Shown: piece by piece, positions 21,305 to 43,838 of the stretch | Numbering within the stretch: position 1 is the stretch's first letter | How the letters are laid out: every line of letters begins with the position of its first letter | NCBI RefSeq assembly: GCF_017355525.1 | Contig: NZ_CP067395.1 | Location: 1,984,001 to 2,048,000 of the forward strand | DNA: 64,000 nt | Direction: 5' to 3' | Source of the DNA: Lysobacter enzymogenes | Lineage (GTDB): Bacteria; Pseudomonadota; Gammaproteobacteria; Xanthomonadales; Xanthomonadaceae | Program-made: the position numbers and the translations under genes | The notes under the pieces: generated by a model | The model's input: the letters and a program-made list of their open reading frames with translations, nothing else | What the model was told of the DNA's origin: nothing | Databases searched by the model: none

Positions 21305-21656
21305 CGGGTTCGGCTCCTTGGCGCGGCGGGGGCCGCGATGTGCGCTGAAACTACCACGCCGGTTTCGCCGGCCCGCGCGCGGTTCGGGTGCTCGTGGGCG
21401 CGGCTTCAGCTTTTGCCGGAGAGGCTCGGGCGCCGGCGCGGTTGTCGCCGAGCGCGGCGACCCGAACGAAAGAAGCCCGACCCGCAAAAACCGGCCGCCG
21501 CAGGCCTGGCGGCGGCCGCGCAAAACCACCGCAAAGGCAAAGCCGGCCGCCACCCCACGTGACTGAAGACACCCTCCCGCGGCCGCCGCGGGGTCCATCA
21601 TCGCCGGATTCCGCGCGCCCGCCGCGCCCGTGCCACGTTGCCTGGGAGTTTCTGCG
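21305..21656. other. Divergent intergenic region between beta-CASP and M13 genes
   Basis: 352 bases without a convincing gene. It holds a 9-base perfect hairpin, GGCCGCCGC/GCGGCGGCC (21494-21518), flanked by A-runs on the plus strand. On the minus strand the stem is followed by GGTTTTTGC, so it might act as an attenuator in the leader of the beta-CASP gene. This is speculative. Confidence 0.4.
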
Positions 21657-23762
21657 ATGCCCCTCCGCCCCCGCCACCTGCTGTTGCCGCTGGCCATCGC
21701 CGCCGCCGTGGCCGCCTGCGCCAAGCCCGAGTCCGCCGCCCCGGCCGCATCGCCGGCCGCGCCGGCGCCGGCCGCGGCCGCCGCGCTGACCCTGGACGAG
21801 TCCAAGCTGCCGCAGCCGGTGCGCTTCGCCGCCAGCGACGTCGACCCGGCCAAGAGCGCCTGCGACAACCTCGGCGAGTACGCCAACAGCAAGTGGTTCG
21901 CGGCCAACCCGATCCCGGGCGACCGTTCGTCGTGGGGCGTGTCGGACGTGCTGGCCGAACGCTCGCTGGCGATCCAGCGCCAGCTCGCCGAACAGGCCGC
22001 CGGCGACGCCAAGGCCGCGGGCGTGGAAAAACTCGTCGGCGACCTGTGGGCCAGCGGCATGGACGAGGCCAAGATCGAGGCCCAGGGCATCGCCCCGCTC
22101 AAGGACGAACTGGCCGCGATCGACGCGGTGACCTCGCCCGAGCAGCTCGGCGGCTACCTGCGCGACAGCGCCGCGCACGGCCGCAACGTGCTGTTCGATT
22201 TCTCCGCCGAAGCCGACTTCAAGAATTCCTCGCAGAACCTCGGCTACGCCACCCAGGGCGGCCTCAGCCTGCCCGACCGCGGCTACTACTTCGACGCCGA
22301 CAAGCGCGACAAGCTCGAGGCCTACCGCGCCCACATCGGCAAGGTGCTGGAGCTCGCCGGCGCCGACGCCGCCGCGGCGAAGAAGCAGGCCGACGCGGTG
22401 ATCGCGTTCGAAACCCGGCTGGCCCAGGTCTCGCTGTCGAGCGAGCAGCTCTCGCGCGACGTCGCCCTGTACTACAACCCGACCAGCCCGGCCAAGGCCG
22501 ACGAGCTGACCCCGAATTTCTCCTGGACCAAGTTCTTCGAATCGCAGGGCGTGGCGACGCCTAAGATGTTCTCGCTGTCGATGCCGGGCTTCCACCAGGA
22601 AGTCAGCAAGATGATCGCCGACACGCCGCTGGAGACCTGGCGCGCCTACCTGCGCTACCACACGGTCGACGGCGCCTCGCCGTACCTGTCGGCGCCGTTC
22701 GTGCAGGAAAGCTTCGAATTCCACGCCAAGGCGATGCGCGGGCAGAAGGAGCCGAAGGCGCGCTGGAAGCGCGTGCTCGGCGGCATCGAGGATCAGGCCG
22801 GCGAAGCGATGGGCCAGTTGTACGTCAAGGTCGCGTTCCCGGCCGAGGCGAAGGCGCGCACCGAGGCGCTGGTGCAGCAGCTGCGCACCGCGCTGAAGGC
22901 GCGGATCGAGAACCTGTCGTGGATGAGCGCGCAAACCAAGCAGAAAGCGCTGGAGAAGTGGGCGAGCTTCACTCCGAAGATCGGCTACCCGGACAAGTGG
23001 CGCGATTGGAGCGGCCTGGCCACCGGCCGCGACAGCTACTACGCCAACGTGCGCGCGGCCAACGAATTCAACTACAAGTGGAGCCTGGGCAAGATCGGCA
23101 AGCCGGTCGACAAGACCGAATGGGGCATGAGCCCGCAGACCGTCAACGCCTACTACAACCCGTTGCAGAACGAGGTGGTGTTCCCGGCCGCGATCCTGCA
23201 GCCGCCGTTCTTCGACCCGAAGGCCGACGACGCCACCAACTACGGCGGCATCGGCGCGGTGATCGGCCACGAGATGATCCACGGCTACGACGACCAGGGT
23301 TCGCGCTTCGATCCGGCCGGCAACATGGCCAACTGGTGGACGCCGGCCGACGCCAAGGGCTTCGCCGCGCGCAGCCAGAAGCTGATCGAACAGTTCGACG
23401 GCTACGAAGCCGCGCCGGGGCTCAAGGTCAACGGCAAGCTGACCTTGGGCGAGAACATCGCCGACCTCGGCGGCCTGGCGACCGCCTACGACGCCATGCG
23501 CCTGGCCACCGCCGACGCGCCCGATCCCAAGACCGACGGCCTGAGCCGCGACCAACGCTTCTTCCTGAGCTTCGCGGTGAGCTGGCGCGACCGCTACACG
23601 CCGGACCTGCTCAAGGTGCTGGTCGCCTCCAACCCGCACGCGCCCAGCGATTTCCGCGCGATCGGCGCGCCGTCGAACCTGCCGGCCTTCGCCGCGGCGT
23701 TCTCGTGCAAGCCGGGCCAGCCGATGGTCCGCGACGGGGACAAGCAGGTGGTGATCTGGTGA
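21657..23762 (+). CDS. M13 family zinc metallopeptidase (neprilysin-like), lipoprotein, copy 1
   Basis: A 701-residue M13 peptidase. N-terminal lipoprotein signal with lipobox ending AAVAAC (Cys at about residue 21), followed by a Pro/Ala linker. Active site: HEMIH (H538, E539, H542), third zinc ligand E599 in GENIADLGG, substrate-binding NAYYNP and PPFFDP, and the conserved C-terminal CKPGQPMV and terminal VIW. Enzymes of the family cleave oligopeptides on the amino side of hydrophobic residues. Probably anchored in the outer membrane facing the periplasm. Very similar to the next gene, with which it forms a tandem duplication. Confidence 0.95.
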   Translation: MPLRPRHLLLPLAIAAAVAACAKPESAAPAASPAAPAPAAAAALTLDESKLPQPVRFAASDVDPAKSACDNLGEYANSKWFAANPIPGDRSSWGVSDVLAERSLAIQRQLAEQAAGDAKAAGVEKLVGDLWASGMDEAKIEAQGIAPLKDELAAIDAVTSPEQLGGYLRDSAAHGRNVLFDFSAEADFKNSSQNLGYATQGGLSLPDRGYYFDADKRDKLEAYRAHIGKVLELAGADAAAAKKQADAVIAFETRLAQVSLSSEQLSRDVALYYNPTSPAKADELTPNFSWTKFFESQGVATPKMFSLSMPGFHQEVSKMIADTPLETWRAYLRYHTVDGASPYLSAPFVQESFEFHAKAMRGQKEPKARWKRVLGGIEDQAGEAMGQLYVKVAFPAEAKARTEALVQQLRTALKARIENLSWMSAQTKQKALEKWASFTPKIGYPDKWRDWSGLATGRDSYYANVRAANEFNYKWSLGKIGKPVDKTEWGMSPQTVNAYYNPLQNEVVFPAAILQPPFFDPKADDATNYGGIGAVIGHEMIHGYDDQGSRFDPAGNMANWWTPADAKGFAARSQKLIEQFDGYEAAPGLKVNGKLTLGENIADLGGLATAYDAMRLATADAPDPKTDGLSRDQRFFLSFAVSWRDRYTPDLLKVLVASNPHAPSDFRAIGAPSNLPAFAAAFSCKPGQPMVRDGDKQVVIW

Positions 23763-24023: not shown

Positions 24024-26144
24024 GTGACCCTCAAGAAACCGCAAGTCCTGTTGCTGTCCGTCGCCATCGCCACCGCCGTCGCGGCCTGCGGCGGCAAAAC
24101 CGAAGCCCCCGCCGCCAGCGCGCCGGCCGAGCAGGCCGCCGCCAAGCCGGCCGAGGCCGCCGCCGAGCTCAAGCTCGACGAGAGCAAGCTGCCGGCGGTC
24201 AACCGCTTCGCCATCGCCGACCTGGACACCAGCAAGGACGCCTGCGTGGACTTCGCCGGTTACGCCAACGGCAAGTGGCTCGCGGCCAACCCGATCCCGG
24301 GCGACCGCACCTCGTGGGGCGCGTTCGAAATGCTCGACGAGCGCTCCAACGGCGTGCAGCACCAGCTCGCCGAACAGGCCGCGGCCGACACCAAGGCCAC
24401 CGGCGTGACCAAGATCGTCGGCGACCTGTGGGCGACCGGCATGGACGAGGCCAAGGTCAACGCCCAGGGCATCGAGCCGCTGAAGGCCGACCTGGCCAAG
24501 ATCGACGCCGTCGACAGCCCGGAAAAGATCGCCGCCTACCTGCGCGAGACCGCCGCGACCGGCGACAACCCGCTGTTCGGCTTCGGCGCCGAAGCCGACT
24601 TCAAGGATTCGGCCAACAACATCGCCTACGCCTCGCAGGGCGGCCTGGGCCTGCCGGACGCGCCGTACTACACCGACGCCAAGCACAAGGACAAGCTGGC
24701 CGCGTACGAGCAGCACATCGCGAAGGTGCTCGAGCTCGGCGGCGCCAAGCCTGAGGATGCCGCCAAGCAGGCCAAGGACGTGATCGCGTTCGAAACCCGC
24801 CTGGCCAAGGCCTCCAAGACCCGCGAGCAGCTCTCGCGCGACGTCTCGCTGTACTACAACCCGATCAGCCCGGCCAAGGCCGACGAGCTGACCCCGAACT
24901 TCTCCTGGACCAAGTTCTTCGAATCGCAGGGCGTGGCCACGCCGAAGATCTTCTCGCTGGCGGTGCCGGGCTTCCACGAGGAAGTCAGCAAGATGATCGC
25001 CGACACCCCGGCGGCCAGCTGGCAGGCCTACCTGCGCTTCCACGCCATCGACGGCGCCTCGCCGTTCCTGTCCGACGCGTTCGTGCAGGAGAACTTCAAC
25101 TTCTACGCCAAGACCCTGCGCGGCCAGAAGGAAATCAAGGACCGCTGGAAGCGCGTGCTGGCCACGGTCGAAGGCCAGGCCGGCGAAGCGATGGGCCAGC
25201 TGTACGTCAAGGTCGCGTTCCCGGCCGAGTCCAAGCAGCGCATGCAGACCCTGGTGGAGAACCTGCGCCAGTCGCTGAAGTCGCGCATCGAGAACCTGTC
25301 GTGGATGAGCGCCGACACCAAGAAGAAGGCGCTGGAGAAGTGGGCCAGCTTCACCCCGAAGATCGGCTACCCGGACAAGTGGCGCGACTGGAGCGGCCTG
25401 AAGACCAGCCGCGACAGCTACTACGCCAACGTCAAGGCGGCCAACGAGTTCAACTACAAGTGGAACCTCAGCAAGGTCGGCAAGCCGGTCGACAAGACCG
25501 AGTGGGGCATGAGCCCGCAGACCGTCAACGCCTACTACAACCCGCTGCAGAACGAGATCGTGTTCCCGGCCGCGATCCTGCAGCCGCCGTTCTTCGACCC
25601 GAAGGCCGACGACGCCGCCAACTACGGCGGCATCGGCGCGGTGATCGGCCATGAAATGACCCACGGCTACGACGACCAGGGTTCGCGCTTCGGCCCGACC
25701 GGCAACATGGAAGTGTGGTGGGCGCCGTCCGACGCCAAGGCGTTCTCGGCCCTGACCGGCAAGTTGATCAAGCAGTTCGACGGCTACACCGCGACCGGCG
25801 GGCAGAAGGTCAACGGCACCCACACCCTCGGCGAGAACATCGCCGACCTCGGCGGCCTGGCCACCGCGTACGACGCGATGAAGAAGGCCGCGGGCGAGAC
25901 CCCGGACCCGAAGACCGACGGCCTGACCCGCGACCAGCGCTTCTTCCTCAACTGGGCGACGGTGTGGCGCCGCAACTTCACCCCGGACGAGGAGAAGATG
26001 CGCCTGCAGACCGACGAGCACGCGCTGGCCAACTTCCGCGCGATCGGCGCGCCGTCGAACCTGCCGAGCTTCGCGGCCGCGTTCTCGTGCAAGCCGGGCC
26101 AGCCGATGGTGCGCGAGGGCGACAAGCAGGTGATCATCTGGTGA
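24024..26144 (+). CDS. M13 family zinc metallopeptidase (neprilysin-like), lipoprotein, copy 2
   Basis: 706 residues from a GTG start with GGAG about 8 bases upstream. Lipobox ATAVAAC then GG. Active site HEMTH (H543, H547) and E604 in GENIADLGG, NAYYNP, PPFFDP and the terminal CKPGQPMV...VIIW are intact. Long stretches are identical to copy 1, for example KASFTPKIGYPDKWRDWSG-type segment (WASFTPKIGYPDKWRDWSGL) and VDKTEWGMSPQTVNAYY, so the duplication is recent or kept alike by conversion. Its own promoter probably lies in 23881-24023 (AATTTAAGG). A strong terminator follows. Confidence 0.95.
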   Translation: MTLKKPQVLLLSVAIATAVAACGGKTEAPAASAPAEQAAAKPAEAAAELKLDESKLPAVNRFAIADLDTSKDACVDFAGYANGKWLAANPIPGDRTSWGAFEMLDERSNGVQHQLAEQAAADTKATGVTKIVGDLWATGMDEAKVNAQGIEPLKADLAKIDAVDSPEKIAAYLRETAATGDNPLFGFGAEADFKDSANNIAYASQGGLGLPDAPYYTDAKHKDKLAAYEQHIAKVLELGGAKPEDAAKQAKDVIAFETRLAKASKTREQLSRDVSLYYNPISPAKADELTPNFSWTKFFESQGVATPKIFSLAVPGFHEEVSKMIADTPAASWQAYLRFHAIDGASPFLSDAFVQENFNFYAKTLRGQKEIKDRWKRVLATVEGQAGEAMGQLYVKVAFPAESKQRMQTLVENLRQSLKSRIENLSWMSADTKKKALEKWASFTPKIGYPDKWRDWSGLKTSRDSYYANVKAANEFNYKWNLSKVGKPVDKTEWGMSPQTVNAYYNPLQNEIVFPAAILQPPFFDPKADDAANYGGIGAVIGHEMTHGYDDQGSRFGPTGNMEVWWAPSDAKAFSALTGKLIKQFDGYTATGGQKVNGTHTLGENIADLGGLATAYDAMKKAAGETPDPKTDGLTRDQRFFLNWATVWRRNFTPDEEKMRLQTDEHALANFRAIGAPSNLPSFAAAFSCKPGQPMVREGDKQVIIW

Positions 26145-26510: not shown

Positions 26511-26567
26511 TCACCGCCATCCCACGCCGGATTGTTAAACTCCCGCATCCTTCGGATGGACTACGCG

Positions 26568-28583
26568 ATGCTGACCCTACGCCCGCTTGCCTGCGCCCTC
26601 GCCCTCAGCCTGATCGCCGGCCTGGCCTCGCCCGCCGCCGACGCCGCCAAGAAAAAGGCCGCACCCAAGACCAAGGCCCCGGCCGTCGCCAACGCCTGCA
26701 GCGACTTCTACGCCAACGCCAACGCCGACTGGCTGCGCGCCAATCCGCTGTCCGGCGCCGCTTCGGTCTCGGCGCTGGAGACCCTGGCCGGCAACGCCCG
26801 CCGCCAGCAGCTGGAACTGCTGAACACCGCGATGACCGCGCCGCAGGGCAACGTGCAGAAGCTGCTCGGCGACTTCTGGGCCAGCGGCCTCGACGAAGCC
26901 GCGGTCGAACGCGACGGCGCCCAGCCGATCGCCCCGCTGCTGGGCCGCATCAACGCGATCAAGAAGTCCAAGGACATCCCGGCCTCGATCGCCGCCCTGC
27001 ACCAGGTCGGCATCCCGGTGCTGTTCAACTTCGGCGCCGACATCGACCTCAAGGACCTGGAACGCCACATCGGCTACTTCAGCCAGGGCGGCCTGGGCCT
27101 GCCGGACCCGGCCTACTACACCCGCACCGACAACGACACCCGCCAGCTGCTGGCGCAGTACAACGTCTACGTGCAGAAGATCCTGGCCCTGACCGGCACG
27201 CCGAAGGACAAGCTCGCGGCCGAGTCGCAGCTGGTCATCGACCTGGAAACCCGCCTGGCGCGCGCGTCCAAGCCGCTGTCGGCGCTGCGCGACCCGCTCG
27301 CCAACTACGCGCCGGTCGCCACCGCCAGCCTCGGCAAGACCTACAAGCGCCTGCAGCTCGGCGATTTCCTCAAGGCCCAGGGCGTCAGCGACGACAGCGT
27401 GTCGATGGCCAACCCGGCGCTGTTCGCCGAGATGGACAAGCTGATCGACCAGCTCAAGCCCGAGCAGTGGAAGACCTACCTGCGCTGGCGCGTCGGCGAC
27501 TCGATGGCGCCGTACCTGGCCAAGAGCTACCGCGACGCCGAATTCGATTTCCGCGGCAAGATCCTGCGCGGCGAGCGCGAGCAGCCCGCGCGCCAGCAGG
27601 CCGTGCTCGACGCGATCACCCTCGCCGCCGGCCCGATGGTCGGCCACGAGTACGCCGCGCGCTACCTGCCGGCCGCGACCGACCAGCGCGCCGAGCAGAT
27701 CGCACAGCAGGTGCGCGAAGCGCTGGCCAAGGCCATCGACGCCGACACCCGCTTCAGCGACAGCGCCAAGAACGAGGCGCGCGCCAAGCTGGCCAAGCTC
27801 AAGATCGAAGTCGGCACGCCCAAGCGCGACCTCGACTACACCGTGCAACCGATGGGCCGCGGCAGCTTCGGCAGCAACATGCTGATCGCCTCGACCTGGC
27901 GCCACCGCGAGGAAATGAAGCGCATCGGCCGCGGCAACGCCGACCGCCGCTGGGACGTGCTGCCGCAGGAGCCGTCGCTGGCCTACGACATCGCCCAGAA
28001 CCGCCTGATCGTGACCGCGGCGATGCTGCAGGCGCCGGTGCTCGACATGAGCCGCGGCGACGCCGCGCAGTACGGTTCCTTCGGCGCCCTGGTCGGCGCC
28101 GAGCTGACCCACGGCTTCGACAGCCGCGGCCGCTACGTCGACGCCAAGCAGGAAGTGCGCGACTGGTGGACCCCGGCCGAAGTGTCGGGCTGGGACGCGA
28201 TGACCGCGCGCGTGGCCGCGCAGTACAGCGCCGAATCCTGGCCGGGCCTGAGCGCGGTCAAGGTCAACGGCAACCAGGTGCGCGAAGTCGCCATCGCCGA
28301 CCAGGCCGGCGTCGAACTCGCCTGGGCCGCCTACCGCGCGGCCCAGCCGGCCGCGAACAAGGACGCCAACCAAGCCTTCTTCAAGGCCTGGGCCGGCGTC
28401 TGGGCGCAGCAGCTGAGCCCGGAAGCGGCGGCGCAGCGCGCGGCTTCGGGCATCCACGCCCCGGGCCAGTGGCGCACCAACATCCCGCTGTCGAACCTGC
28501 CGGCGTTCGGCGAAGCGTTCGGCTGCAAGGCGGGGACGGCGATGGTGCGCAAGGCGGATCAGCAGATCAAGGTGTTTCCCTGA
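26568..28583 (+). CDS. M13 family peptidase homologue with destroyed zinc site (probable pseudoenzyme), copy 3
   Basis: About 671 residues with a cleavable signal peptide (LACALALSLIAGLASPAADA) rather than a lipobox. The whole M13 fold is present (NACSDFYANANADWLRANP, FSQGGLGLPDPAYY, terminal CKAGTAMVRKADQQ). But the HExxH motif reads AELTH (A511, E512, H515), the third-ligand segment GENIAD reads EVAIAD, and the NAYY substrate motif is DIAQNRL. At least two zinc ligands are therefore gone. The frame is intact and codon use is normal, so it is a maintained protein, not a decayed gene. ATG at 26556 is an alternative start. Confidence 0.88.
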   Translation: MLTLRPLACALALSLIAGLASPAADAAKKKAAPKTKAPAVANACSDFYANANADWLRANPLSGAASVSALETLAGNARRQQLELLNTAMTAPQGNVQKLLGDFWASGLDEAAVERDGAQPIAPLLGRINAIKKSKDIPASIAALHQVGIPVLFNFGADIDLKDLERHIGYFSQGGLGLPDPAYYTRTDNDTRQLLAQYNVYVQKILALTGTPKDKLAAESQLVIDLETRLARASKPLSALRDPLANYAPVATASLGKTYKRLQLGDFLKAQGVSDDSVSMANPALFAEMDKLIDQLKPEQWKTYLRWRVGDSMAPYLAKSYRDAEFDFRGKILRGEREQPARQQAVLDAITLAAGPMVGHEYAARYLPAATDQRAEQIAQQVREALAKAIDADTRFSDSAKNEARAKLAKLKIEVGTPKRDLDYTVQPMGRGSFGSNMLIASTWRHREEMKRIGRGNADRRWDVLPQEPSLAYDIAQNRLIVTAAMLQAPVLDMSRGDAAQYGSFGALVGAELTHGFDSRGRYVDAKQEVRDWWTPAEVSGWDAMTARVAAQYSAESWPGLSAVKVNGNQVREVAIADQAGVELAWAAYRAAQPAANKDANQAFFKAWAGVWAQQLSPEAAAQRAASGIHAPGQWRTNIPLSNLPAFGEAFGCKAGTAMVRKADQQIKVFP

Positions 28584-28608
28584 TTTCCTGGTCGCCTAGC
28601 AAGTAACG

Positions 28609-28636
28609 AAAAAGCCCGGCGAAAGCCGGGCTTTTT
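28609..28636. terminator. Bidirectional Rho-independent terminator
   Basis: AAAAAGCCCGGC (28609-28620), loop GAAA, GCCGGGCTTTTT (28625-28636). It serves the convergent M13 copy 3 gene and the ternary-system operon. Confidence 0.9.
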
Positions 28637-28698
28637 CTTTGTCGCGCCATCGCGCGCGCGCGGCAGCCGCGGCTACCGCCGCGATACGCGTCCGACGC

Positions 28699-31470
28699 TC
28701 ACTGCAATTGCACCGCGCGCGTCTGCGAACTGTTCGCATCGATCGCCATCGCCCGGCCCTGATCGTCGAACAGCACCAGCCGCCCGTCCTGCTCGCGCGC
28801 GCGCAGCGGCGCCTGCGGCCAGTCGATCCGCGCCACGCAACGCGCGGCCGTCTGGTTGCCGCGCGCGACCAGATACAGGTTCATGCGATAGCTGCCGTGC
28901 AGCAGCACCGCGAAGCCCTGGGTCAGCGGGATCAGCGAGCTGTCGCACTCGCCCGTGCCCGGCTCCGGCGGATCCAGGTCGATGGCGCTGCTGCGTCCGG
29001 CGAAGCGGAACGAGAAGCGCACGCCGCCGTCGGCGTTCGCCTCCGCGGCCACGTCGGTGACGCTGCGGTGCGGGTCGAGCAGCATCGTGTCGGCGGAAAT
29101 TTCCACCGGTTCGCGCGAGACCAGCGAACGCTTGGGAGCGCTGCGGTAGTGCCAGACCGCAGTGGCGCCGTGCCCGGCGACCAGGAACAGTTCGTCGTGG
29201 CGCAGGAACCGCGCCTGCACCACCGCGCCGCCGAGATCGCCGACGCTCCACAACACGTTAAGCGCCGCGCTGCTGGCGTCGAGCAGGACGATGCGCTGGT
29301 CCGACACCACCGACCAGGCGATGCCGTCGAAGCGGTCGGCGAAGAACTGCAACGGCATCGCGCCGAGGTCGAGGATCTCGTGCCGGGTCAGGTCGAGCCG
29401 GGCGATGCGCCAGACCGAATCGCGCTGGACCAGCGCCAGCGCGACTTCGCCGCTGTCGCCGATCACCAGCCTTTGCGCGGGCGCCGCGTAGCGGCGCAGG
29501 CAATGGCCGGCGGCATCGTAGACGGCCACGCCGGCCTCGCCGAACGCGGCCAGCCAGCGGCCTTCGCCGAGCGCTGCGACATCCAGCGGGCTGTGCGCGC
29601 TGGCGCCGGACTCGATCCGCGCGACCAGCGGCGCGGCGCGGTTCCACAGCGGCAACGCCGGCGGCGTCGGCGGCAGGCCCCAGTCGGGCAAGTCGGCGTT
29701 GAGCCACGGGTCGGCGGCGAGCTTGCGGATGCCGTCGAGCTGCATGCGTTCGAGCGCGTTGGCGCCGGCGGCGCGATCGGCGGCGAGCGCCGGCAGTGCG
29801 TTCGCGGCGATGCGCGCCAACGCCGGGCCGCCGTTCTTGCAAGCGGCCAGCGCCAGTCCCAGCGCTTCGCGCGGCGCGGCCGCGGCGTCGCCATCGCACA
29901 GCTCGGCGATGCGCGCGGCGTAATGTTCGAGGGTATCGGGCAGCAACGCGGCGCGCCGCACCAGCGCGCGCGCCGACAGTTCGGCGCCGCCGGCTTCGGC
30001 CGCGAGCAGCCAGCGCGCCGCCTGTTCGTGCGCGTCCGGGTCGCTCCAGACCGCGTCCACCGCTTCCAGCCAGTGGCCTTGCGCGGCCAGCGCGTGGCCC
30101 CACTCGCGGCGCAGCGCCAGCGCGTCCTCGCGGCGTCCGCCCTGCGCTTCGAGAATCGCGACCGCGGCGGCGAAGGCGTTGTCGCGGCGCGCCACCAGCA
30201 CCGCGCGCTCGCGGTCGCCGGCGAGCATCAGCAGGCGGATGATCGTGTCCGCCGGCATGTCCCAGCCCAGCGCCAGTTCCGCGGCCTGCGCGGCGCGGTC
30301 GTGCGCGAGCAGATAGTCCAAAGCCTCCTGGCGCGCGTTGAGCAGTTCGGCGAGCACGAACACCGCTTCGTCGATCCGGCCCTCGCGGTCGAGCCGCTCG
30401 AACGCGCGGCGATAGCGCTGGCGCAGCAGTTCGCGCACGTCTTCGCCGACGCCGATGCTGGCGCCGGCGCCGAGCCTCGCGCTCGGGGTCAGGCGGTCGC
30501 GCCGCTGCGGCAGGCCGAAGGCCTGGCCCAGCGAGCGCATCGCCTCGCCGTCGACCGGCAGCGCATGGCGCAGCGCTTCCATGACGTCGCCGCGGTCGAA
30601 CAGCTCCAGCAACCGGCGCAGGTACGCGCCCTGGCGCATGCCGATCAGCCGCGCCACGCCGCTGGCCGCGGCCATGCGCGCGAGCGCCTCGCGCCAGCGC
30701 TGCGGCCGCGCGACCCGCGTCCGCGCGGACACGCCCGCGCCGCTTCGCGCGGGAGCGCCTGCGCCCGACCCGCTGGCGCCTGGGTCGCCGCTGTTTGCGC
30801 CGCCGGCACCGCTGCCCAGCAGCCCCGGAAACTGCGCGAGCAACCACGCCGCGGCGTTGTCGCGCGCGCCGGTCAATCGCTCCCGCAAACTTGCGCCGGA
30901 GGCGTCCGCAGCCTCGCCCGACAAGGCGCTCAGGAACCGCTCGCGCTCGCGGCTCGGCGGCGCGACCCGATCGCCGAGCAGCGCGCGCACGCTCTTGCCG
31001 CCGAGCCGGTCCGGCGCCAGCTTCGGCACGGCGCGGTCGCAGACGAAGGTGTCGTGCAGCGCGTAATCGTCCAACTCGATCGCCAGCGACGGGTCCAGGA
31101 CCTCGCCCTCGGCGATATCCAGCGCGACCAGTTGTCCGCCCAGCACCAGGCGCACATCGGCCGGCGCCAGCCCCTCGCGCTCGCTCGCGCGCAGCGGCCC
31201 CGCGTACAGGCCGTGCGCGCCGATCCGGCACAACGGCGTGCCGCCGGCGCGCTCGCATTCCAGCGCGCGCTCGGCTTCGAACCGCAGCAGATCGCCGCGC
31301 GCCGCTGCGCGATCGAAACGCCACGCGCGGCAGCCCGGCGCCCACCAGCGCAGCAGGCGTTCGCTGCGCTGGCGCGCGTCGAGCAGATCGGCGGGCAGCC
31401 ACAAGCCGGCCACGGCCTGCCGGCCGCGCCAGACCGGATAGCGCACCTGCGCGCTGGGCGTCTCAGACAT
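28699..31470 (-). CDS. bpX6-like helical-repeat and beta-propeller protein of a MoxR-vWA-propeller ternary system
   Basis: A 923-residue cytoplasmic protein without signal or membrane segments. Residues about 5-165 form a distinct N-terminal domain (VRYPVWRGRQAVAGLWLPAD, RLLRWWAPG, GDLLRF) resembling the bpX6 domain of ternary systems. Then a Gly/Ser/Ala linker (about 220-255), an Ala-rich helical-repeat region like TPR/solenoids (about 260-620) and a C-terminal beta-propeller (about 635-923; blades such as DVAALGEGRWLAAFGEAGVAV and GDLGGAVVQARFLRHDELFLV shown by spaced beta-strand pairs). Its start overlaps the stop of the vWA-propeller gene by 8 bases. It is the last gene of the operon. bpX6 assignment is from memory of the family; needs profile search. 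Confidence 0.75.
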   Translation of the reverse strand: MSETPSAQVRYPVWRGRQAVAGLWLPADLLDARQRSERLLRWWAPGCRAWRFDRAAARGDLLRFEAERALECERAGGTPLCRIGAHGLYAGPLRASEREGLAPADVRLVLGGQLVALDIAEGEVLDPSLAIELDDYALHDTFVCDRAVPKLAPDRLGGKSVRALLGDRVAPPSRERERFLSALSGEAADASGASLRERLTGARDNAAAWLLAQFPGLLGSGAGGANSGDPGASGSGAGAPARSGAGVSARTRVARPQRWREALARMAAASGVARLIGMRQGAYLRRLLELFDRGDVMEALRHALPVDGEAMRSLGQAFGLPQRRDRLTPSARLGAGASIGVGEDVRELLRQRYRRAFERLDREGRIDEAVFVLAELLNARQEALDYLLAHDRAAQAAELALGWDMPADTIIRLLMLAGDRERAVLVARRDNAFAAAVAILEAQGGRREDALALRREWGHALAAQGHWLEAVDAVWSDPDAHEQAARWLLAAEAGGAELSARALVRRAALLPDTLEHYAARIAELCDGDAAAAPREALGLALAACKNGGPALARIAANALPALAADRAAGANALERMQLDGIRKLAADPWLNADLPDWGLPPTPPALPLWNRAAPLVARIESGASAHSPLDVAALGEGRWLAAFGEAGVAVYDAAGHCLRRYAAPAQRLVIGDSGEVALALVQRDSVWRIARLDLTRHEILDLGAMPLQFFADRFDGIAWSVVSDQRIVLLDASSAALNVLWSVGDLGGAVVQARFLRHDELFLVAGHGATAVWHYRSAPKRSLVSREPVEISADTMLLDPHRSVTDVAAEANADGGVRFSFRFAGRSSAIDLDPPEPGTGECDSSLIPLTQGFAVLLHGSYRMNLYLVARGNQTAARCVARIDWPQAPLRAREQDGRLVLFDDQGRAMAIDANSSQTRAVQLQ

Positions 31471-33421
31471 CGCCGTCCCCCTCGGCGTCGCTTCCCCCGG
31501 CGTAGATCGTCGTACTCACGCCGCGTTCGTGCAACACCACCAGCCGGCCGCGCAGGTCGATCACGGCGATGGTCTCGCCGCCGGCGGCGACGCTGCCGAC
31601 GGTCAGGCGGATGCTGGACTGGTACAGGGTGCGGCGTTCGTTCTCGCCGATCGCCAGCACCGCGGTGCGGTCGGGGTTGATCGCGATCAGCGCCGGGCCG
31701 CCGTCGCGCGGCGCGTCGATGCCGATCACTTTCCATTCGCTCGGCAGGATCAGCTCGAAATCGGCCGCGATGTCGCCGCCGTCCCATTGCAGCAGCCGCC
31801 ACAACGCGGAACGCTCGCCGCCGTGGCCGCCGAGGCGCAGCTCGACCGCGGCGACGTGGCGGTAACCGCCGCGCACCCGCTGGCCGTGCAGCCAGCCCGA
31901 CTGGATCTGCCCCGGACACTTGGCCTCGGCGAGCGCCCGGTCGTTCCTGTTGGCCCGACCCGGCTGGGTGGTGGCGACCTCGATGCGGCCATCGCGCACC
32001 CGCAGGTAATCGACCCACGCCTCGTGCATCGCGACCATCGCCAGCACCTGCTGCGCATACGGCGCGAACTTGGCGGGATCGCCGTCCGAATCCTGCGGGC
32101 GCCAGCGCCACAGGTTTCCGGAGTCCAGCACGAACAGCTCCGGCTTCGGCTCGGCGCGGCCGCCGAGCTCCCTCGCCGACGCCTGCACCCAAGCCATCGG
32201 CGCCCAGCGTCCGCGGTCGGGCGAGCAGTTCAGCAGTTCCGGCCGCACACCCTGGACGAAACCTCGTAGCCCCTGGAAAGACAGCGCCGGGAGCGGAGCG
32301 CCGTCCGGGTACGCGCCCGGATGAGCGCGCGGCCGCGAGTACGCCACCACGCCGCCGAATACATGAGCGTGGATGCCCGCCGCAAACAACGGCCCGGTCC
32401 AGTGCACCACGCTGGGGTTGCCGAGCCGGCGCTTGCTGGTCAGCCGGTGCAGATGCACGACTTGCTTGTCCCACAACGGCACCGCCACCGACAAACCGTT
32501 CGCCGACAACAGCGGCGGCTGTTTCAGCGAGATGCGTTCGGCCACCCGCACCACCCGTACCGGGCCGATCTCCTCAGTGGCCGGCGCCACCTGCGGCTTG
32601 AGCACGAACTGGCCGCGCAGCAGGCGCGAGCCGCGCTTGGGATCGGGCAACGCCAGCCGCGCTTCGCGCCGCGCCTGCGGCGAGCTCACCGTCACCGCCA
32701 ACTCGCCGGCGCCGGCTGCCGCGATGGCGACGCGGTGGCCGAGGCCATAACCGGCCGCGGCCGCGCCGATCGACCATCGCTCGCCCGGACTGGGCTGCTG
32801 CGCATCCAGCCACTGCGCCCATTGCTGTTCCAGCATCGCGCGCGCCGCTCCGGTGCCGGAATGACCGGCTTCCGCGAAGTTCGCTTCGGCGCGAAAACGC
32901 CAGGCGCGCGCGTCGAGCAGTTCGCGCAGGCTCTGCGTCGGGTCGCCCGCGTGTCCGGCCGCATGCAGCTCGCCGGGAATACCGAGCACGCCCCACAAAA
33001 ACCGCGCCTTCGCCGCCTGCGCCCGCTGCGCCAACAAGATCCACAACGCGATATGCAACAACCGCGGCGCGCCCAACTGCGCCGGCCCGCTGTCGAACAC
33101 CGCCACGGTCAGCGCGTCGGTCTGGCGCGCGATCAATTTCGGGCTCAGGAACAAATGCTCGCCGCCGGCGGCGCGGCGGTCGAATTCTTCCGGCGCGGCG
33201 TCGGCCAGCGCCCATTCGCTCAGCAGCAGGCGTTCGTAGCTGCCGCGGCGGCGCAGGTCGTCGATGCCTTCGGGCTCGACCTGCCCGCGCAAGGCGCGCA
33301 GGCGGAACGCGCCGAGCAGCGGATGCAGGCGCAGCAGCAGCTCGCCGAGCGCGGCCGCCGGTTCCGGGTCGAACCAGTCCAGCCATTGCCGCCAGGGCGT
33401 CAGGGTCGCGGGCAGGCGCAT
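31463..33421 (-). CDS. vWA-like plus beta-propeller protein of a MoxR-vWA-propeller ternary system
   Basis: A 652-residue protein. Residues about 1-100 precede a vWA-like Rossmann segment: LTVAVFDSGPAQLGAPRLLHIALWILLAQRA (quoted core VAVFDSGPAQLGAPRLLHIA, about 104-124) followed by KARFLWGVLG. The MIDAS DxSxS reads DSGPAQ, so metal binding may be lost. From about residue 290 a beta-propeller follows, with strand pairs separated by about 40-60 residues and blade-like ends (GLSVAVPLWDKQVVHLHRL, ALIAINPDRTAVLAIGENER, GETIAVIDLRGRLVVLHE). In ternary systems the vWA protein partners a MoxR ATPase; here it is fused to a propeller. Starts 4 bases past the 139-residue gene. Confidence 0.72.
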   Translation of the reverse strand: MRLPATLTPWRQWLDWFDPEPAAALGELLLRLHPLLGAFRLRALRGQVEPEGIDDLRRRGSYERLLLSEWALADAAPEEFDRRAAGGEHLFLSPKLIARQTDALTVAVFDSGPAQLGAPRLLHIALWILLAQRAQAAKARFLWGVLGIPGELHAAGHAGDPTQSLRELLDARAWRFRAEANFAEAGHSGTGAARAMLEQQWAQWLDAQQPSPGERWSIGAAAAGYGLGHRVAIAAAGAGELAVTVSSPQARREARLALPDPKRGSRLLRGQFVLKPQVAPATEEIGPVRVVRVAERISLKQPPLLSANGLSVAVPLWDKQVVHLHRLTSKRRLGNPSVVHWTGPLFAAGIHAHVFGGVVAYSRPRAHPGAYPDGAPLPALSFQGLRGFVQGVRPELLNCSPDRGRWAPMAWVQASARELGGRAEPKPELFVLDSGNLWRWRPQDSDGDPAKFAPYAQQVLAMVAMHEAWVDYLRVRDGRIEVATTQPGRANRNDRALAEAKCPGQIQSGWLHGQRVRGGYRHVAAVELRLGGHGGERSALWRLLQWDGGDIAADFELILPSEWKVIGIDAPRDGGPALIAINPDRTAVLAIGENERRTLYQSSIRLTVGSVAAGGETIAVIDLRGRLVVLHERGVSTTIYAGGSDAEGDGDV

Positions 33422-33425
33422 GCGC

Positions 33426-33845
33426 TCAGTCCTGCCAGCGCGCGCGGATCTGCGCGATCAGTTCGTCGCCGGCCGGCAGCGCGCGGTGCAAAGGCACCAG
33501 TTGCGCCGGGTCGCGCAGCATCAGCAAAGGCGACGGGCGATGGCGGCGTTCCAGCGCGCGTTGCAGCAGGTCCAGCGGCAGTTGCGGGCGCTGCGTGGTC
33601 GGCAGCCACAGCGCCGGCGCGGCTTCGCGCGGCGCGATGTAGAGCACGCCTTCGCACCACGGCAGTTCGTCGGCGCGGCCGGTCGCCACCAGCACGTCGG
33701 CGTTGGCGGTCAGCATGAGCTTGCCGCGCCGCTGCGGTTCCAGCGTTTCTATCGCGGCCAGCAACGCGCGCGCGGCGGCGCAGCCGACGCCGGCGGCGCC
33801 CTGCGGCGCGGGCGGTTCCGGTTCCGGGCCCCACTCCCAGTTCAT
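33426..33845 (-). CDS. Small unknown component of the ternary-system operon
   Basis: A 139-residue protein, acidic Pro-rich at the N-terminus (WEWGPEPEPPAPQG) and then a compact alpha/beta-looking domain (GKLMLTANADVLVATG, GVLYIAPREAAPALWLP, PLDLLQRALER, DELIAQIRARW). Its ATG overlaps the MoxR stop (ATGA), so its amount is tied to MoxR. No known family can be assigned. It may be one of the bpX-type adaptor domains. The ORF is conserved in phase and operonic position, which argues for a real gene. Confidence 0.7.
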   Translation of the reverse strand: MNWEWGPEPEPPAPQGAAGVGCAAARALLAAIETLEPQRRGKLMLTANADVLVATGRADELPWCEGVLYIAPREAAPALWLPTTQRPQLPLDLLQRALERRHRPSPLLMLRDPAQLVPLHRALPAGDELIAQIRARWQD

Positions 33846-34999
33846 GCCGCCGCCGTCACCCGTTCGGCCAGGCGCGCGCGCTCGGCGGCCAGTTCGGCCG
33901 GCAACGCGTCGCGGTCGAAGTTGGCGTCGATCTCGCGCAGCAGCGCTTCGGCGATGACCCCGGCGCCGGGCGCGTCGGCCGCGCCGGCGAGGCAGGCGCG
34001 CGCGGCTTCGAGCAGGCGCGCGACCCGCGACACCGGTTGCAGCGCGGCGTGTTCGACCGCGGCGCGCAGGGTCGGGTTGGCGGCGGCGGCGAGCGAATCG
34101 CGCAGCACGTCCTGCGCGGCCAGTTGCGCTTCGCGCGTGGGCATGACGTAGAACAGCGGCCACAGGTCGGCTTCGTCGGCGGCGTCGCGCCCGGCCAGCA
34201 CCGCGGCCGCGGCGATCAGGCGCTGGACCTTGACGATGCGCCGGTCCGACAGGCTTAAGCCCGCGCCGCGCAGCTTGCGGATCGCCTCGGCCAGCAGCCC
34301 GCGCGCGCGCTCCATCGCCACCGCCGGCACCCGCCGGCTCAGTTCGTCGATGTCGCTGAGATCGGCGCGGTGCGCCAACGGCGCCGCCTGCGCCTGCCAG
34401 CCGCCGGCCAGCAGCGCTTCGAGCTGGTGGTCCGGCACCGGTTCGACGAACAGATGCAGCAGGAAGCGGTCGGCGAACGCGGCCAGCGATTCGTCGTCGG
34501 GCAGCGCGTTGGACGCGCCGACGCAGACCCGCAGCGGACACGCGACCTGGGTGTGGCCGCGGCGGAAGCGGCGTTCGTTGAGCACGCCGAGCAAGGTGTT
34601 GAGGATCGCGGTCGAGCCGAGGAACACCTCGTCGAGGAACGCGACCTCGGCCTCGGGCAGCATGCCGCTGACGTCGGTCTCGACCACGCCCTCGCGCAGC
34701 CGGCGCAGGTCGACCGGGCCGAACAGTTCCGACGGCTCGGTGAAGCGGCCCAGCAGGTATTCGAAATAGCGGCCGCCCAGGGCCGCGGCGACGCGCCGCA
34801 CCACCGCGCTCTTGGCGGTGCCCGGCGGGCCGAGGATCAGCAGATGCTCCTGCGCGACCGCGGCCAGCACGATCAGCTCGGCGAGCTGCTCGCGTTCGAC
34901 CAAGCCGGTGGTGGCGGCATGCGCGGCGTCGCGGACGCGGGCCGCGGCCTGTTGCGCGGCGGAGGGGGCGGAACTCACCGCGGAGGAGCTGGAGGTCAT
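33842..34999 (-). CDS. MoxR-type AAA+ ATPase
   Basis: 385 residues. Walker A GPPGTAKS and Walker B FLDEVF are intact, with sensor 1 Asn in GASNALPDDESLAAFADRF and the Arg finger in DRFLLHLF. An N-terminal Ser/Ala-rich tail of about 18 residues precedes REQLAELIVLAAVAQEHLLI. MoxR ATPases act as chaperone-like remodellers of vWA-containing partners, here the protein two genes downstream. First gene of the four-gene operon; start at ATG 34999, after GGAGCT. Confidence 0.92.
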   Translation of the reverse strand: MTSSSSAVSSAPSAAQQAAARVRDAAHAATTGLVEREQLAELIVLAAVAQEHLLILGPPGTAKSAVVRRVAAALGGRYFEYLLGRFTEPSELFGPVDLRRLREGVVETDVSGMLPEAEVAFLDEVFLGSTAILNTLLGVLNERRFRRGHTQVACPLRVCVGASNALPDDESLAAFADRFLLHLFVEPVPDHQLEALLAGGWQAQAAPLAHRADLSDIDELSRRVPAVAMERARGLLAEAIRKLRGAGLSLSDRRIVKVQRLIAAAAVLAGRDAADEADLWPLFYVMPTREAQLAAQDVLRDSLAAAANPTLRAAVEHAALQPVSRVARLLEAARACLAGAADAPGAGVIAEALLREIDANFDRDALPAELAAERARLAERVTAAA

Positions 35000-35364
35000 A
35001 GCGGGCGGCCTGGGTCCTTGGCGGCGCGCGGCGGCGGCGTGGCCGTAGCGACGTGGCGTTGGGTCGTTGATCGGGGTGTGGGCCGGCGTTGCGGGCGCGC
35101 AGCGAACGCAGCGCGCGCGGACGCGCCGGCCACGCGCGCACTGTAGGCGCGCGGCGCGCGAAACCGCAACTGAGGTCGCGTTAGGTTCGTGAGCGGCGCA
35201 GCGGTGTGGGCGAACGGCGCCGGCCCGGGGGCGGGTTTTCCCGATCCGCTGGGGATGCTCCTGTAGGAGCGGCGCGAGCCGCGACTGCGACAACCCACCT
35301 ACGCCGCGACTATCGTCGTAGTTGGGTTGTCGCAGTCGCGGCTCGCGCCGCTCCTACAGGGGGC
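35000..35364. other. Intergenic region between MoxR operon and rhomboid gene
   Basis: 365 bases without a gene. The half next to moxR should hold the operon promoter; the other half is a long hairpin described separately at 35260-35360. Confidence 0.5.
35260..35360. repeat. Inverted pair of the 30-base REP-like repeat forming a 44-base-arm hairpin
   Basis: The left arm (35260-35303) starts CCTGTAGGAGCGGCGCGAGC and pairs with the right arm (35317-35360) with a single mismatch over 44 bases and a 13-base loop. It could terminate or stabilise the transcript of the rhomboid gene, which ends at 35365 on the minus strand. Confidence 0.9.
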
Positions 35365-36081
35365 CTACTTGACTACGCGCAGCTTCGACGCCTTGCGCCG
35401 ATCCCGCAGCGCCTCGGCGCGCGGGTCGCGGCGCGGGCCGCTGCCGCCGCTGCGCGGCGGATGCTTGCGCCACCACAGGATCAGCAGCCAGCCGATCAGC
35501 ATGCCGCCGAGGTGGGCGAAGTGGGCGACGCCGGTGCCGGTGGTGAACACGCCGTAGAACAGCGAGGCGGCCACGTACACGATCACCAGGGTGCGCGCCT
35601 TGAGCACGATCGGGAACGGCAGCAAGGTCACCTTGCTGTTCGGGAACAGCACGCCGTAGGCCAGCAGCAGGCCGTAGATCGCGCCGGACGCGCCCAGGGT
35701 CAGCACCAGCTGGCCCTGATAGATCGCGTAGGTCGCCGCGGCCAGTTGCAGCAGCGCCGAGCCGAGCAGGCAGACGAAGTAGTAGATCGCGTAGCGCCGC
35801 GCGCCCCAGGCGTGCTCGACGGTCGAGCCGAACATCACCAGCGCGAGCATGTTGAACACCAGGTGGCCGAGGCCGCCGTGCATGAAGCCGGAGGTGACCA
35901 GCTGCCACGGCATGAAACCCGGTCCGTCGACTTCGAACTGCGGCGGCACCCACGGCCACAGTTCGAACCACAACGGCCAGGCGCGGGCGGCTTCGCTCGC
36001 GCCGGCGATGGACTGCAACAGGAAAACGGCAACGTTGGCGATCAGCAGCTTGCGCGTGACCGACGGGATACTGGAAAACAT
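35365..36081 (-). CDS. Rhomboid family intramembrane serine protease
   Basis: A 238-residue polytopic membrane protein with about six hydrophobic helices. Catalytic Ser in GASGAIYG (helix 4), catalytic His in VAHFAHLGGMLIGW (helix 6), and the conserved HGGLGHLVFNMLAL segment in helix 2 plus the WxR-like WGARRYAIYYF loop. It would cleave membrane proteins within the bilayer; the substrate is unknown. The C-terminus is basic and cytoplasmic (about 30 residues). Confidence 0.93.
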   Translation of the reverse strand: MFSSIPSVTRKLLIANVAVFLLQSIAGASEAARAWPLWFELWPWVPPQFEVDGPGFMPWQLVTSGFMHGGLGHLVFNMLALVMFGSTVEHAWGARRYAIYYFVCLLGSALLQLAAATYAIYQGQLVLTLGASGAIYGLLLAYGVLFPNSKVTLLPFPIVLKARTLVIVYVAASLFYGVFTTGTGVAHFAHLGGMLIGWLLILWWRKHPPRSGGSGPRRDPRAEALRDRRKASKLRVVK

Positions 36082-36371
36082 CGCAACTCCTCGGACCGGG
36101 CGCTATGGTAGCCGCGCGCGCCGCGCCGGGAGGTGAGCGCGGCGTGCAGATCGCGTCGGCCGTTCAGATCGGAATGCGGCCGCGGTCGCGGCGCGGCGAC
36201 CGGTCCCGCCCGCGCGTCCGGCCTGCCGGCTGTGCGGGCGCGTCCGGCGTCGCCGGCCGACCCGTTTCAGCCGCGCCGCCGGGCGATACAGCCGGCTCAG
36301 CCGGGCAGCGCGCAGCCCGGTCGACACCGTCGCCGCGTCGGATCGAGCATTCGTCCCGCGCACCGCCAGCG

Positions 36372-36707
36372 CTACTCCGCCGGCCCCCAAATCTGCTCGT
36401 CCATCGTCGCCGCCGCGCGCTGGCCGCGCACCCGCCCTTTCTCGACCTTCACGCCTTCGGCGCGCAGGCGTTGGGACTGTTCGCGCCAGCCCTTGGAGCC
36501 TTCCGGGAAGGCGATGCGGCCGTCGGAGCGCAGCACCCGGTGCCAGGGCAGCTTGGGATCTTCGTTCTCGCTGAGCAGGCGCGCGACCAGGCGCGCGCGG
36601 CCCGGCAGGCCCGCGCGCCGCGCGACCTCGCCGTAACCGGCGACTTCGCCGCGCGGAATCGCGCGGATCGCGGCGAAGATGCGTTTGGCGGCAGTTTCGC
36701 TGTCCAT
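36372..36707 (-). CDS. Alkyltransferase-like protein (ATL), MGMT family without the acceptor Cys
   Basis: A 111-residue DNA-binding-domain-only member of the O6-alkylguanine-DNA alkyltransferase family. The active-site PCHRV reads PWHRV, the mark of ATL proteins, which bind O6-alkylguanine without removing the alkyl group and channel the lesion to nucleotide excision repair. Arg-finger helix RAGLPGRARLVARLL and the final GRVRG are present. Start ATG at 36707 (MDSETAAKRIF) avoids the overlapping longer version. It is divergent from the YbjN-like gene. Confidence 0.9.
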   Translation of the reverse strand: MDSETAAKRIFAAIRAIPRGEVAGYGEVARRAGLPGRARLVARLLSENEDPKLPWHRVLRSDGRIAFPEGSKGWREQSQRLRAEGVKVEKGRVRGQRAAATMDEQIWGPAE

Positions 36708-41696: not shown

Positions 41697-43838
41697 CTAC
41701 TGCGGCAACTGCGCCAAAAACTCCGCCGCCGGTACCGGGTGCCCGAGCCAGTAACCCTGCGCCAGATCGCAGCCGCGTTCGCGCAGCACCGCGTACTGGC
41801 CTTCCTTCTCCACGCCTTCGGCGACCACGGTCACGCCGAGCGAGTGGGCCATCGCGATGATCGCCGTGGTCAGCGCCAGATCGTCGGGATCGCGCAGCAC
41901 GTCGGCGACGAAGCTGCGGTCGATCTTGACCCCGTCGACCGGCACCCGGCGCAGATGGCTGAGGCCGGAAAAGCCGGTGCCGAAATCGTCCAGCCAGACC
42001 TTGACCCCGCTGCTGCGCAGCCGCGACAGCAAGGCGCTGGCGTGGACTTCGTCGCCGATCACCGCGGTCTCGGTCAGCTCCAGGTGCAGCAGCCACGGCG
42101 GCAGCCGGGTTTCCTGCAGACACGCGGCGACCACGTTGGGCAGGTCGCCGTTGCGCAGCTGCCGCGGCGAGACGTTGACCGAAACGAACAGCGGCTCGGC
42201 GCCGGGACGCGCCTCGCGCCAGGTCACCGCGTCCTCGCAGGCCGCGCGCAGCACCTGCGGGCCTAGGGTTTCGATCTGCCCGCTCTGCTCGGCCACGTCG
42301 ATGAACACCGACGGCGCGATCAGGCCCTGCTCGGGATGCTTCCAGCGCAGCAAGGCCTCGGCGCCGACCATCGCGCCGTCGCCGAGGCGGAACACCGGCT
42401 GGTAGACCAGGCTCAGCTCGCCGCGGTCCCAGGCGCCGCGCAGCGCGTGTTCCAGGTGCACGCGCCGCTCCACCGCCTGGTCCATCGCCCGGCTGTAGAA
42501 GCGGTAGCAGTTCTTGCCGGCGACCTTGGCCTGGTACATCGCGATGTCGCCGTTCTTCATCAGCGCGGTCGCGCCGCTGGCGTCTTCCGGATACAGGGTC
42601 ACGCCGATCGAGGTGCCGAGGAACACCTGCCGCTCGTGCACCGCGATCGGCTGGCCGAGCTCGGTCACCAGCACTTCGGCCAGATGGGTCGCGAGCTGAC
42701 GCGCTTCGCCGGCGCGGTGATGCCGGCCTTCGACCAGGATCACGAACTCGTCGCCGCCGAAGCGCGCCAGCAGCGCGCGTTCGCCGCCGACCCGCTCGAC
42801 CGTGGCGGCGATGCGCTGCGCGCATTGCAGCAGCACCTCGTCGCCGGCGTCGTGGCCGAGGGTGTCGTTGACCCGCTTGAAGTCGTCGATGTCGGCGAAC
42901 AGCAGCGCCAGCTGGCCGCGGCCGCCGTCGAACTGCTGCAGGCGCGCGTCCAGCGCCTCGCGGAACGCGAGCCGGTTGGCCAGCCCGGTCAGCGAATCGG
43001 TGTAGGCCATGCGGCGGATGTCGCGGTCGTGGCGCGCCAGCGACTGGCTCATGCGGCTGAAGGCGCGCATCAGGTCGCCGACTTCATCGTTGTGGCGGGC
43101 CGCGTCGGAGTCGTCGAACTGGCCGAAGCGGCCGTCCTCGATCGTGTGCGCGGCCTCGGCCAGTTCGCGGATCGGCTTGACCAGCCAGCGCTGGATCAGC
43201 CACAGCATCGCCGCGCCGAGCGCCAGCAGGCCGAGGCTGAGCAGGCCGACCCACAGCAATTGCAGGCGGCCCAGCGCTTCCAGGCGCCGGCGCAGTTCTT
43301 CCAGCGCGCTGTCCTGGTACGCGCGCATGGCCTTGAGGTCGTAGCCCACGCGCACCCCGCCGAGGCGCTGCTGGCCGATCTTGATCGGCGCGGACACGTC
43401 GAAGGTGCTGTCGCTCCACTGCCCCAGCAGCGCCGGCGCGGCCATGATCTTCGCCGCGAGCGGATCGTCCATGCGCTTGCCGTAGCTCGGGATCTCCTCG
43501 CTGCCGTCGTGGACGATGTTGCCGTCGTTGTCGTAGACCACCACGTAGCGCACGCCCGGGTTGGTCATCGCCGCGCGGCTGAGTTCGCCGATCGCGTCGA
43601 GGTCGAAGTAGTACAGCGGGTTGGTCAGCGAACCGGCGAGCTGGGCCACTTCGCCTTCGCCGTGGCGGCGCAGGCTGGCGACGAAGCTGTCGCGCATGGC
43701 GTCGCGGCTGACCTCGACCACCGCGCTCTGGATCCGCTCCTGGCGCTGCAGCAGCAGGCCGATCAGCACCGCCACCACCGCCAGGGCCAGACCCATGATC
43801 GACAGGAACTTGGCCTGCAGGCCGCGCGGCGATTTCAT
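41697..43838 (-). CDS. GGDEF-EAL cyclic-di-GMP signalling protein with periplasmic sensor and HAMP
   Basis: 713 residues: membrane helix about 11-31, periplasmic sensing domain about 40-190 (NPLYYFDLDAIGELSRA, VVVYDNDGNIVHDGSE), second helix 193-216, HAMP about 216-270, GGDEF domain with an intact GGDEF motif (361-365) but no RxxD I-site, and an EAL domain with EAL at 494-496 and the loop-6 motif DDFGTGFSG (about 617). Both catalytic motifs are kept, so it may be bifunctional, with the phosphodiesterase probably dominant. RBS AAGGGGG; starts 10 bases past the PhnD-like gene. Confidence 0.93.
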   Translation of the reverse strand: MKSPRGLQAKFLSIMGLALAVVAVLIGLLLQRQERIQSAVVEVSRDAMRDSFVASLRRHGEGEVAQLAGSLTNPLYYFDLDAIGELSRAAMTNPGVRYVVVYDNDGNIVHDGSEEIPSYGKRMDDPLAAKIMAAPALLGQWSDSTFDVSAPIKIGQQRLGGVRVGYDLKAMRAYQDSALEELRRRLEALGRLQLLWVGLLSLGLLALGAAMLWLIQRWLVKPIRELAEAAHTIEDGRFGQFDDSDAARHNDEVGDLMRAFSRMSQSLARHDRDIRRMAYTDSLTGLANRLAFREALDARLQQFDGGRGQLALLFADIDDFKRVNDTLGHDAGDEVLLQCAQRIAATVERVGGERALLARFGGDEFVILVEGRHHRAGEARQLATHLAEVLVTELGQPIAVHERQVFLGTSIGVTLYPEDASGATALMKNGDIAMYQAKVAGKNCYRFYSRAMDQAVERRVHLEHALRGAWDRGELSLVYQPVFRLGDGAMVGAEALLRWKHPEQGLIAPSVFIDVAEQSGQIETLGPQVLRAACEDAVTWREARPGAEPLFVSVNVSPRQLRNGDLPNVVAACLQETRLPPWLLHLELTETAVIGDEVHASALLSRLRSSGVKVWLDDFGTGFSGLSHLRRVPVDGVKIDRSFVADVLRDPDDLALTTAIIAMAHSLGVTVVAEGVEKEGQYAVLRERGCDLAQGYWLGHPVPAAEFLAQLPQ

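Follow-up and report, generated by a model that had tools for sequence, protein, structure and literature searches.

A beta-propeller MoxR-vWA ternary system in Lysobacter enzymogenes and the replacement of its propellers among relatives

Introduction

Which part of a bacterial ATPase system with beta-propeller partners varies from strain to strain, and what could that part be for? The question is raised by a four-gene operon of Lysobacter enzymogenes at positions 28,699 to 34,999 of a DNA stretch of 64,000 nucleotides (NCBI RefSeq assembly GCF_017355525.1, contig NZ_CP067395.1, positions 1,984,001 to 2,048,000). The whole stretch is called the window here, and coordinates refer to it unless another locus is named. 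The operon class itself has already been described, and the addition of the present work is the exchange of the propellers, the main variable parts of the system. Neither an earlier report of such exchange nor experiments on beta-propeller MoxR ternary systems were found among the literature matches listed, with subscription journals mostly outside their scope.

Composition of the operon

The operon is a beta-propeller MoxR-von Willebrand factor A (vWA) ternary system of the bpX5/bpX6 type, which is subsystem 4 of Kaur et al. (2020; PMC7159879). The four frames are all on the minus strand, with a 4-base overlap, a 4-base gap and an 8-base overlap between them, exactly as the original prediction had it. 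The first gene (33842..34999) encodes bpMoxR, a MoxR/RavA-type AAA+ ATPase of 385 residues, as had been proposed; its P-loop, GPPGTAKS at residue 57, fits the pattern GXXXTAKS, and a Walker B motif is also present. The source genome (one contig, 5.9 Mb) holds a single strong bpMoxR match of 307 bits, the next best reaching 64. The second gene (33426..33845) had been given as an unknown of 139 residues. The gene is there, and its product is in fact bpX5, which is present in 16 of the 20 genomes of the genus. The Pfam scores of bpMoxR (PF20030, 305 bits), bpX5 (PF19921, 166 bits) and bpX6 (PF19922, 197 bits) stand far above the cut-off of 27 that applies to each and, together with the propeller models below, bear out the assignment to the ternary systems.

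The bpX6 match is confined to the N-terminus of the 923-residue protein encoded by the last gene (28699..31470), where the domain covers residues 9-182 (30925..31446). It is followed by a linker, by a helical solenoid (residues 258-600; 29671..30699), delimited by the secondary structure of the model, and by a predicted C-terminal beta-propeller (residues 612-923; 28702..29637), which agrees with the three-part architecture expected of this protein. The structure model has a mean predicted local distance difference test score (pLDDT) of 84.7.

The third gene (31463..33421) encodes a protein of 652 residues for which Pfam gives no match at E ≤ 1. Its model (mean pLDDT 85.7) has N-terminal helices, a vWA-like region and a C-terminal beta-propeller at residues 285-645 (31487..32569), the segment that is replaced between close relatives. 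The predicted structures thus support the view that both large proteins end in a beta-propeller. The other half of what had been claimed for this protein, a vWA-like part, was not confirmed by any profile. Residues 1-230 (32732..33421) comprise the helices and the vWA-like region with an invariant Asp110, and 'vWA-like' is kept here as an unconfirmed label. A sequence profile run against PDB returned four weak matches, none of which covers the N-terminus. A VIA-align fold search matched only about residues 280-652 of the model; the N-terminal part was barely probed by it, so the absence of vWA from its results is uninformative. The profile comparison with bpX, vWA and propeller families placed bpX5 and bpX6 and left the 652-residue protein unmatched in Pfam.

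The fusion of a vWA-like part to a propeller and the three-part build of the last protein had been regarded as unusual. Neither is, according to the passages of Kaur et al. on these systems: there the vWA component 'strictly possesses' a C-terminal propeller, which is why the fusion is nothing out of the ordinary, and the third component typically consists of an N-terminal variable region, tetratricopeptide repeats (TPR) and a propeller. The present operon resembles that description in its bpMoxR with a GXXXTAKS P-loop (frequent, not required), in the C-terminal propeller on the presumed vWA component, in a third component made of an N-terminal domain, helical repeats and a propeller, and in an extra small gene. 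It differs from the same general description in that the third component has neither a convincing membrane segment nor a highly variable bpX6 domain, and in that the propellers vary most and are seen to be exchanged. The membrane segment was sought in the bpX6 protein by hydropathy, and none was convincing (highest 19-residue value 1.27, compared with 2.21 in a membrane-protein control).

Variable parts of the operon

Mean identities within Lysobacter were taken over 105 orthologue pairs without locus L032, and over 91 pairs for the bpX6 protein. MoxR is 86.5% and bpX5 70.1% identical. Within the 652-residue protein the mean falls from 82.1% over residues 1-85 to 70.2% over the vWA-like core (residues 86-225) and 42.3% over the propeller. 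Within the 923-residue protein it is 64.5% for the bpX6 domain, 44.4% for the linker, 72.1% for the solenoid and 55.6% for the propeller. For the flanking M13b peptidase, values near 34% and a low mean were set aside, as they stem from a wrong paralogue picked up where the end of a locus truncated a copy. The ratio of nonsynonymous to synonymous substitution rates (dN/dS) between the window and four near relatives was 0.60-0.79 for the propellers, 0.30-0.46 for the bpX6 domain and 0.11-0.25 for MoxR. Two alignments, A1 and A2, were built from 97 and 83 sequences chosen among the matches listed (at least 120 each).

A comparison across genera used 82 of 90 loci, in which all four proteins reach at least 80% of the reference length, and pairs whose MoxR proteins are at least 94% alike. 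The least conserved part was a propeller in 25 of these 36 close pairs, that of the bpX6 protein in 17 and that of the vWA-like protein in eight. In the other 11 pairs it was residues 136-230 of the vWA-like protein (five), bpX5 (four) or the bpX6 domain (two), the linker not being scored. The bpX6 domain is consequently not the highly variable part, since it was least conserved in just two of the 36 pairs; the linker behind it is variable. Judged by sequence comparison, it is mainly the propellers that vary, and not the N-terminal bpX6 domain. If the propellers also set specificity, the variable part would sit elsewhere than the published prediction has it.

Replacement of the propellers

The clearest case is provided by three loci, L025, L026 and L031, which are alike in their M13c peptidases (98-99%), MoxR (98-99%) and bpX5 (94-96%). 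The first 135 residues of their 652-residue orthologues are also 97-99% alike, with a synonymous difference of 0.10-0.11. The propeller of the L026 protein then drops to 48-51% identity at a synonymous difference of 0.57-0.59, and in the next gene, bpX6, the latter is 0.19. The DNA follows the same course: L026 is 93-99% identical to L025 and L031 over MoxR and bpX5, 46-69% over the propeller and 80-98% over bpX6. A second block, at residues of about 141-240, switches independently, and here the odd one out is L025. A natural recombinant is found in the protein P0018, in which an L031-type N-terminus (99%) is joined to an L025-type propeller (94%).

Replacement of this kind recurs. After the removal of ten named repeats and, in a second round, of near-identical sequences, 188 sequences were left, and these gave 24 groups that are at least 95% alike over residues 1-135. 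In eight of the 24, two or three types of propeller occur that are less than 70% alike. The 652-residue protein of the window shares one such mixed group with P0012, and the propellers of the two are 40% alike. Tree tests on 14 Lysobacter loci rejected the flank tree, the MoxR/bpX5 tree and the tree of the partner protein for both large proteins. Taken together, these comparisons show that recombination replaces the propellers in relatives, most of all the one on the vWA-like protein, whereas there is little change in MoxR, in bpX5 and in residues 1-135 of the vWA-like protein.

For the bpX6 protein, a separate observation was made in the Pseudomonas loci L101 and L082, where a stretch of the bpX6-protein propeller is 96-98% alike and the preceding sequence 72-92%. 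This looks like a recent import between Pseudomonas species. Internal repeats were considered as a source of the diversity and rejected, as no high-identity repeats were found.

Possible function

Because strains exchange the propellers, these are taken as the recognition surface for something variable, and the pattern suggests that the propellers may decide what the system recognises. The explanation that is tentatively preferred, although its probability is put a little below one half, is that the ternary system works as a recognition module: the propellers would bind a variable ligand, possibly a foreign or non-self protein that stems from a phage or from a competitor, and MoxR would remodel the vWA-like/propeller protein. 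The four operon proteins would join in one complex, with MoxR as the ATP-driven switch, the bpX6/solenoid protein as the scaffold and bpX5 as the adaptor. By spending ATP on the vWA-like/propeller protein, the MoxR ring would switch the bpX6 scaffold between states. According to the relevant passages of Kaur et al., the use of ATP to remodel partner complexes is known from MoxR-vWA pairs. Pfam recognised no effector enzyme domain in the four proteins; the system may therefore act by binding, sequestration or localisation. The points counted for recognition are the profiles, the propeller models, the likeness to RavA, the conserved gene order, the patchy occurrence and the replacement of propellers.

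A more specific proposal, held with somewhat less assurance, is that the propeller of the vWA-like component might be an exchangeable specificity module on a MoxR/bpX machinery that is kept, and hence a bacterial counterpart of polymorphic WD-repeat receptors. In the passages of PMC2873952 that deal with the fungal HNWD receptors, the WD-repeat domain, a polymorphic propeller-type domain beside a nucleoside triphosphatase, controls recognition specificity. The likeness is one of analogy, not homology, and the source of the diversity differs: it arises by rearrangement of repeats in HNWD, whereas here large propeller segments are swapped and no high-identity internal repeats were found. Should specificity indeed depend on the propellers, closely related Lysobacter strains with little other than the propeller to tell them apart would offer a ready-made comparison and allow a first direct test of the system.

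Several results weigh against recognition as the function. Pooled over five close pairs, dN/dS is 0.33 for the vWA-protein propeller, 0.21 for the bpX6-protein propeller and 0.07 for MoxR, and none exceeds 1. The two propellers do not coevolve beyond what MoxR explains (partial rho 0.06 in Lysobacter). No switch of the bpX6-protein propeller occurred in 137 pairs whose solenoids are at least 92% alike, the propellers of these being at least 78% alike. The MoxR/bpX5 data did not reject the flank tree (p 0.095) or the tree of the vWA-protein propeller (p 0.074), and the remainder of the operon likewise has a somewhat elevated synonymous difference compared with the peptidase gene. The vWA family has no Pfam match in the 652-residue protein or in eight relatives, and hhalign against vWA gave 0.4%, compared with 97.2% for a vWA control. 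PADLOC returned only four weak matches to the AAA region of MoxR (E 0.0068 or worse); it returned none for the other three proteins. Finally, the operon has a fixed place in most Lysobacter.

Two ideas found no support here. For positive selection, no pooled dN/dS ratio is above 1; a single stretch of 60 residues in one pair has a value of 1.9. Coevolution of the two propellers beyond MoxR was not supported either, and the lack of co-divergence means that the association between propellers held conceivable in the consulted parts of Kaur et al. receives no support.

The same data raise the question of whether the propellers have any role in specificity. They could be weakly constrained scaffolds, and the mosaic could be ordinary homologous recombination that chanced on the operon. 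The pooled ratios, the synonymous difference that is up across the whole operon compared with the peptidase gene, and the variability of bpX5 and of residues 136-230 of the vWA-like protein would all fit. However, weak constraint alone would not account for a synonymous difference that climbs from 0.10 to 0.59 within a single gene, and the replacement is recurrent, as the eight mixed groups indicate. This neutral explanation is therefore judged improbable.

Distribution and genomic place

The recognition module has a more serious competitor in an assembly chaperone of the RavA-ViaA kind, the assessment of which depends in part on where the operon occurs. A profile scan of named genomes yielded 143 confirmed loci, of which the best 80 were used. 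The gene order was counted in these 80, in 15 fetched Lysobacter loci and in the window, minus six duplicates (L038-L042 and L055), which makes 90 loci. In 85 of the 90 the four genes are arranged as in the window, all on one strand, and the conservation of gene order in relatives that had been foreseen is thereby confirmed. The other five are partial: L046, L052, L053 and L103 start at the beginning of the fetched sequence, and L097 holds only a fragment of the bpX6 protein. In loci L081 (7506-12679; Xanthomonas phaseoli pv. phaseoli) and L105 (7875-12960; Pseudomonas sp. KNUC1026) each of the two large proteins, vWA-like and bpX6, is divided among more than one frame, which points to a broken operon or to assembly errors.

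The bpX6 gene is patchily distributed, with matches in 25 of 297 genomes of the family and in four of 54 genera. Among the best 80 of the 143 loci, shared flanking frames (shadow frames possible) define 16 neighbourhood groups and 19 singletons. Within Lysobacter the operon is flanked by M13 peptidase and rhomboid genes in 13 of the 15 fetched loci and in the window. The many neighbourhood groups and the shared place within the genus indicate that the operon has settled at many sites and tends to stay put within genera. A parallel is found in the Pseudomonas syringae clade 2b-a, for which the table passages of PMC9677677 list ravA, bpX5, '6ND4' and bpX6 as one row, RGP_32. The four genes and their listed order match those of the present operon, and the row lies within a region of genome plasticity; the table passages give neither function nor variation.

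As a chaperone, MoxR and the vWA-like/propeller protein would bring an endogenous complex to maturity, and the propellers would track a fast-evolving client. RavA is the nearest relative of bpMoxR with a solved structure (E 5e-42), and RavA-ViaA shares the MoxR-family ATPase with the present system. The differences, as drawn from the comparison with RavA, are that the NCBIfam RavA model scores bpMoxR at 170.1 bits, below its cut-off of 681, and that the partners here are bpX and propeller proteins. The fixed place in those 13 Lysobacter loci, purifying selection throughout when ratios are pooled, and the lack of a recognised effector domain would also suit a chaperone. However, patchy occurrence in many neighbourhoods is unlike a household chaperone, and so is the abrupt replacement of propellers between near-identical loci. 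A chaperone is accordingly considered rather unlikely, though less so than the neutral explanation, and the recognition module remains the tentative choice.

The adjacent AAA/TPR gene pair

In 14 of the 15 fetched Lysobacter loci, bpMoxR is adjoined by a divergent pair of genes that encode a TPR-AAA ATPase and a TPR-membrane protein. This invites the idea of a six-component system of which the strain of the window has lost two parts. The TPR-AAA is absent from its genome, and both genes of the pair are absent at the locus. The region upstream of bpMoxR runs into a palindrome of the repetitive extragenic palindromic (REP-like) kind, and it is exactly there that the pair of the relatives is missing. 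This element, a 47-nucleotide inverted repeat with 96% complementarity (35260-35360), lies after the rhomboid gene and before bpMoxR, and similar copies occur in related loci. TPR-AAA and bpX5 are either both present or both absent in 19 of the 20 genus genomes, with the strain of the window as the exception. In four bpX-negative Lysobacter genomes the pair and the bpX operon are both missing, with no gene of the query set between peptidase and rhomboid.

The membership of the pair was nevertheless rejected, as it tracks the M13 peptidase gene, which TPR-AAA adjoins in seven of nine loci that were fetched because TPR-AAA lies there away from a bpX operon. Genomes G032, G066 and G106, which are among those carriers, have a TPR-AAA without a bpX6 match. 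In G012, taken as Lysobacter sp. Root916, the pair keeps its place by the peptidase and the bpX operon lies about 190 kb off on the same contig. Among the best 80 of the 143 named loci, the pair was found within 10 kb only in Lysobacter. Because it adjoins the peptidase without a bpX operon nearby, the pair is most likely a neighbour rather than a component, and a six-component system is very improbable. The genus of G079 says little on this point (11 genomes: five with bpX6 and AAA, one with bpX6 alone, two with AAA alone, three with neither). The TPR-AAA matches in loci L118 and L119 (genomes G170 and G079) contain one internal stop codon each.

Other features of the window

A promoter and terminator scan gave no signal above shuffled sequences, and Rfam gave no matches over 28000-36500. 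ARAGORN called a tRNA-Leu (cag) at 42397-42471, which may be a false call; it lies inside a frame of 713 residues (41697-43838) with a strong coding bias on the other strand. Three M13 peptidase genes stand in a row on the plus strand (21630-23762, 24024-26144 and 26532-28583) and end beside the operon.

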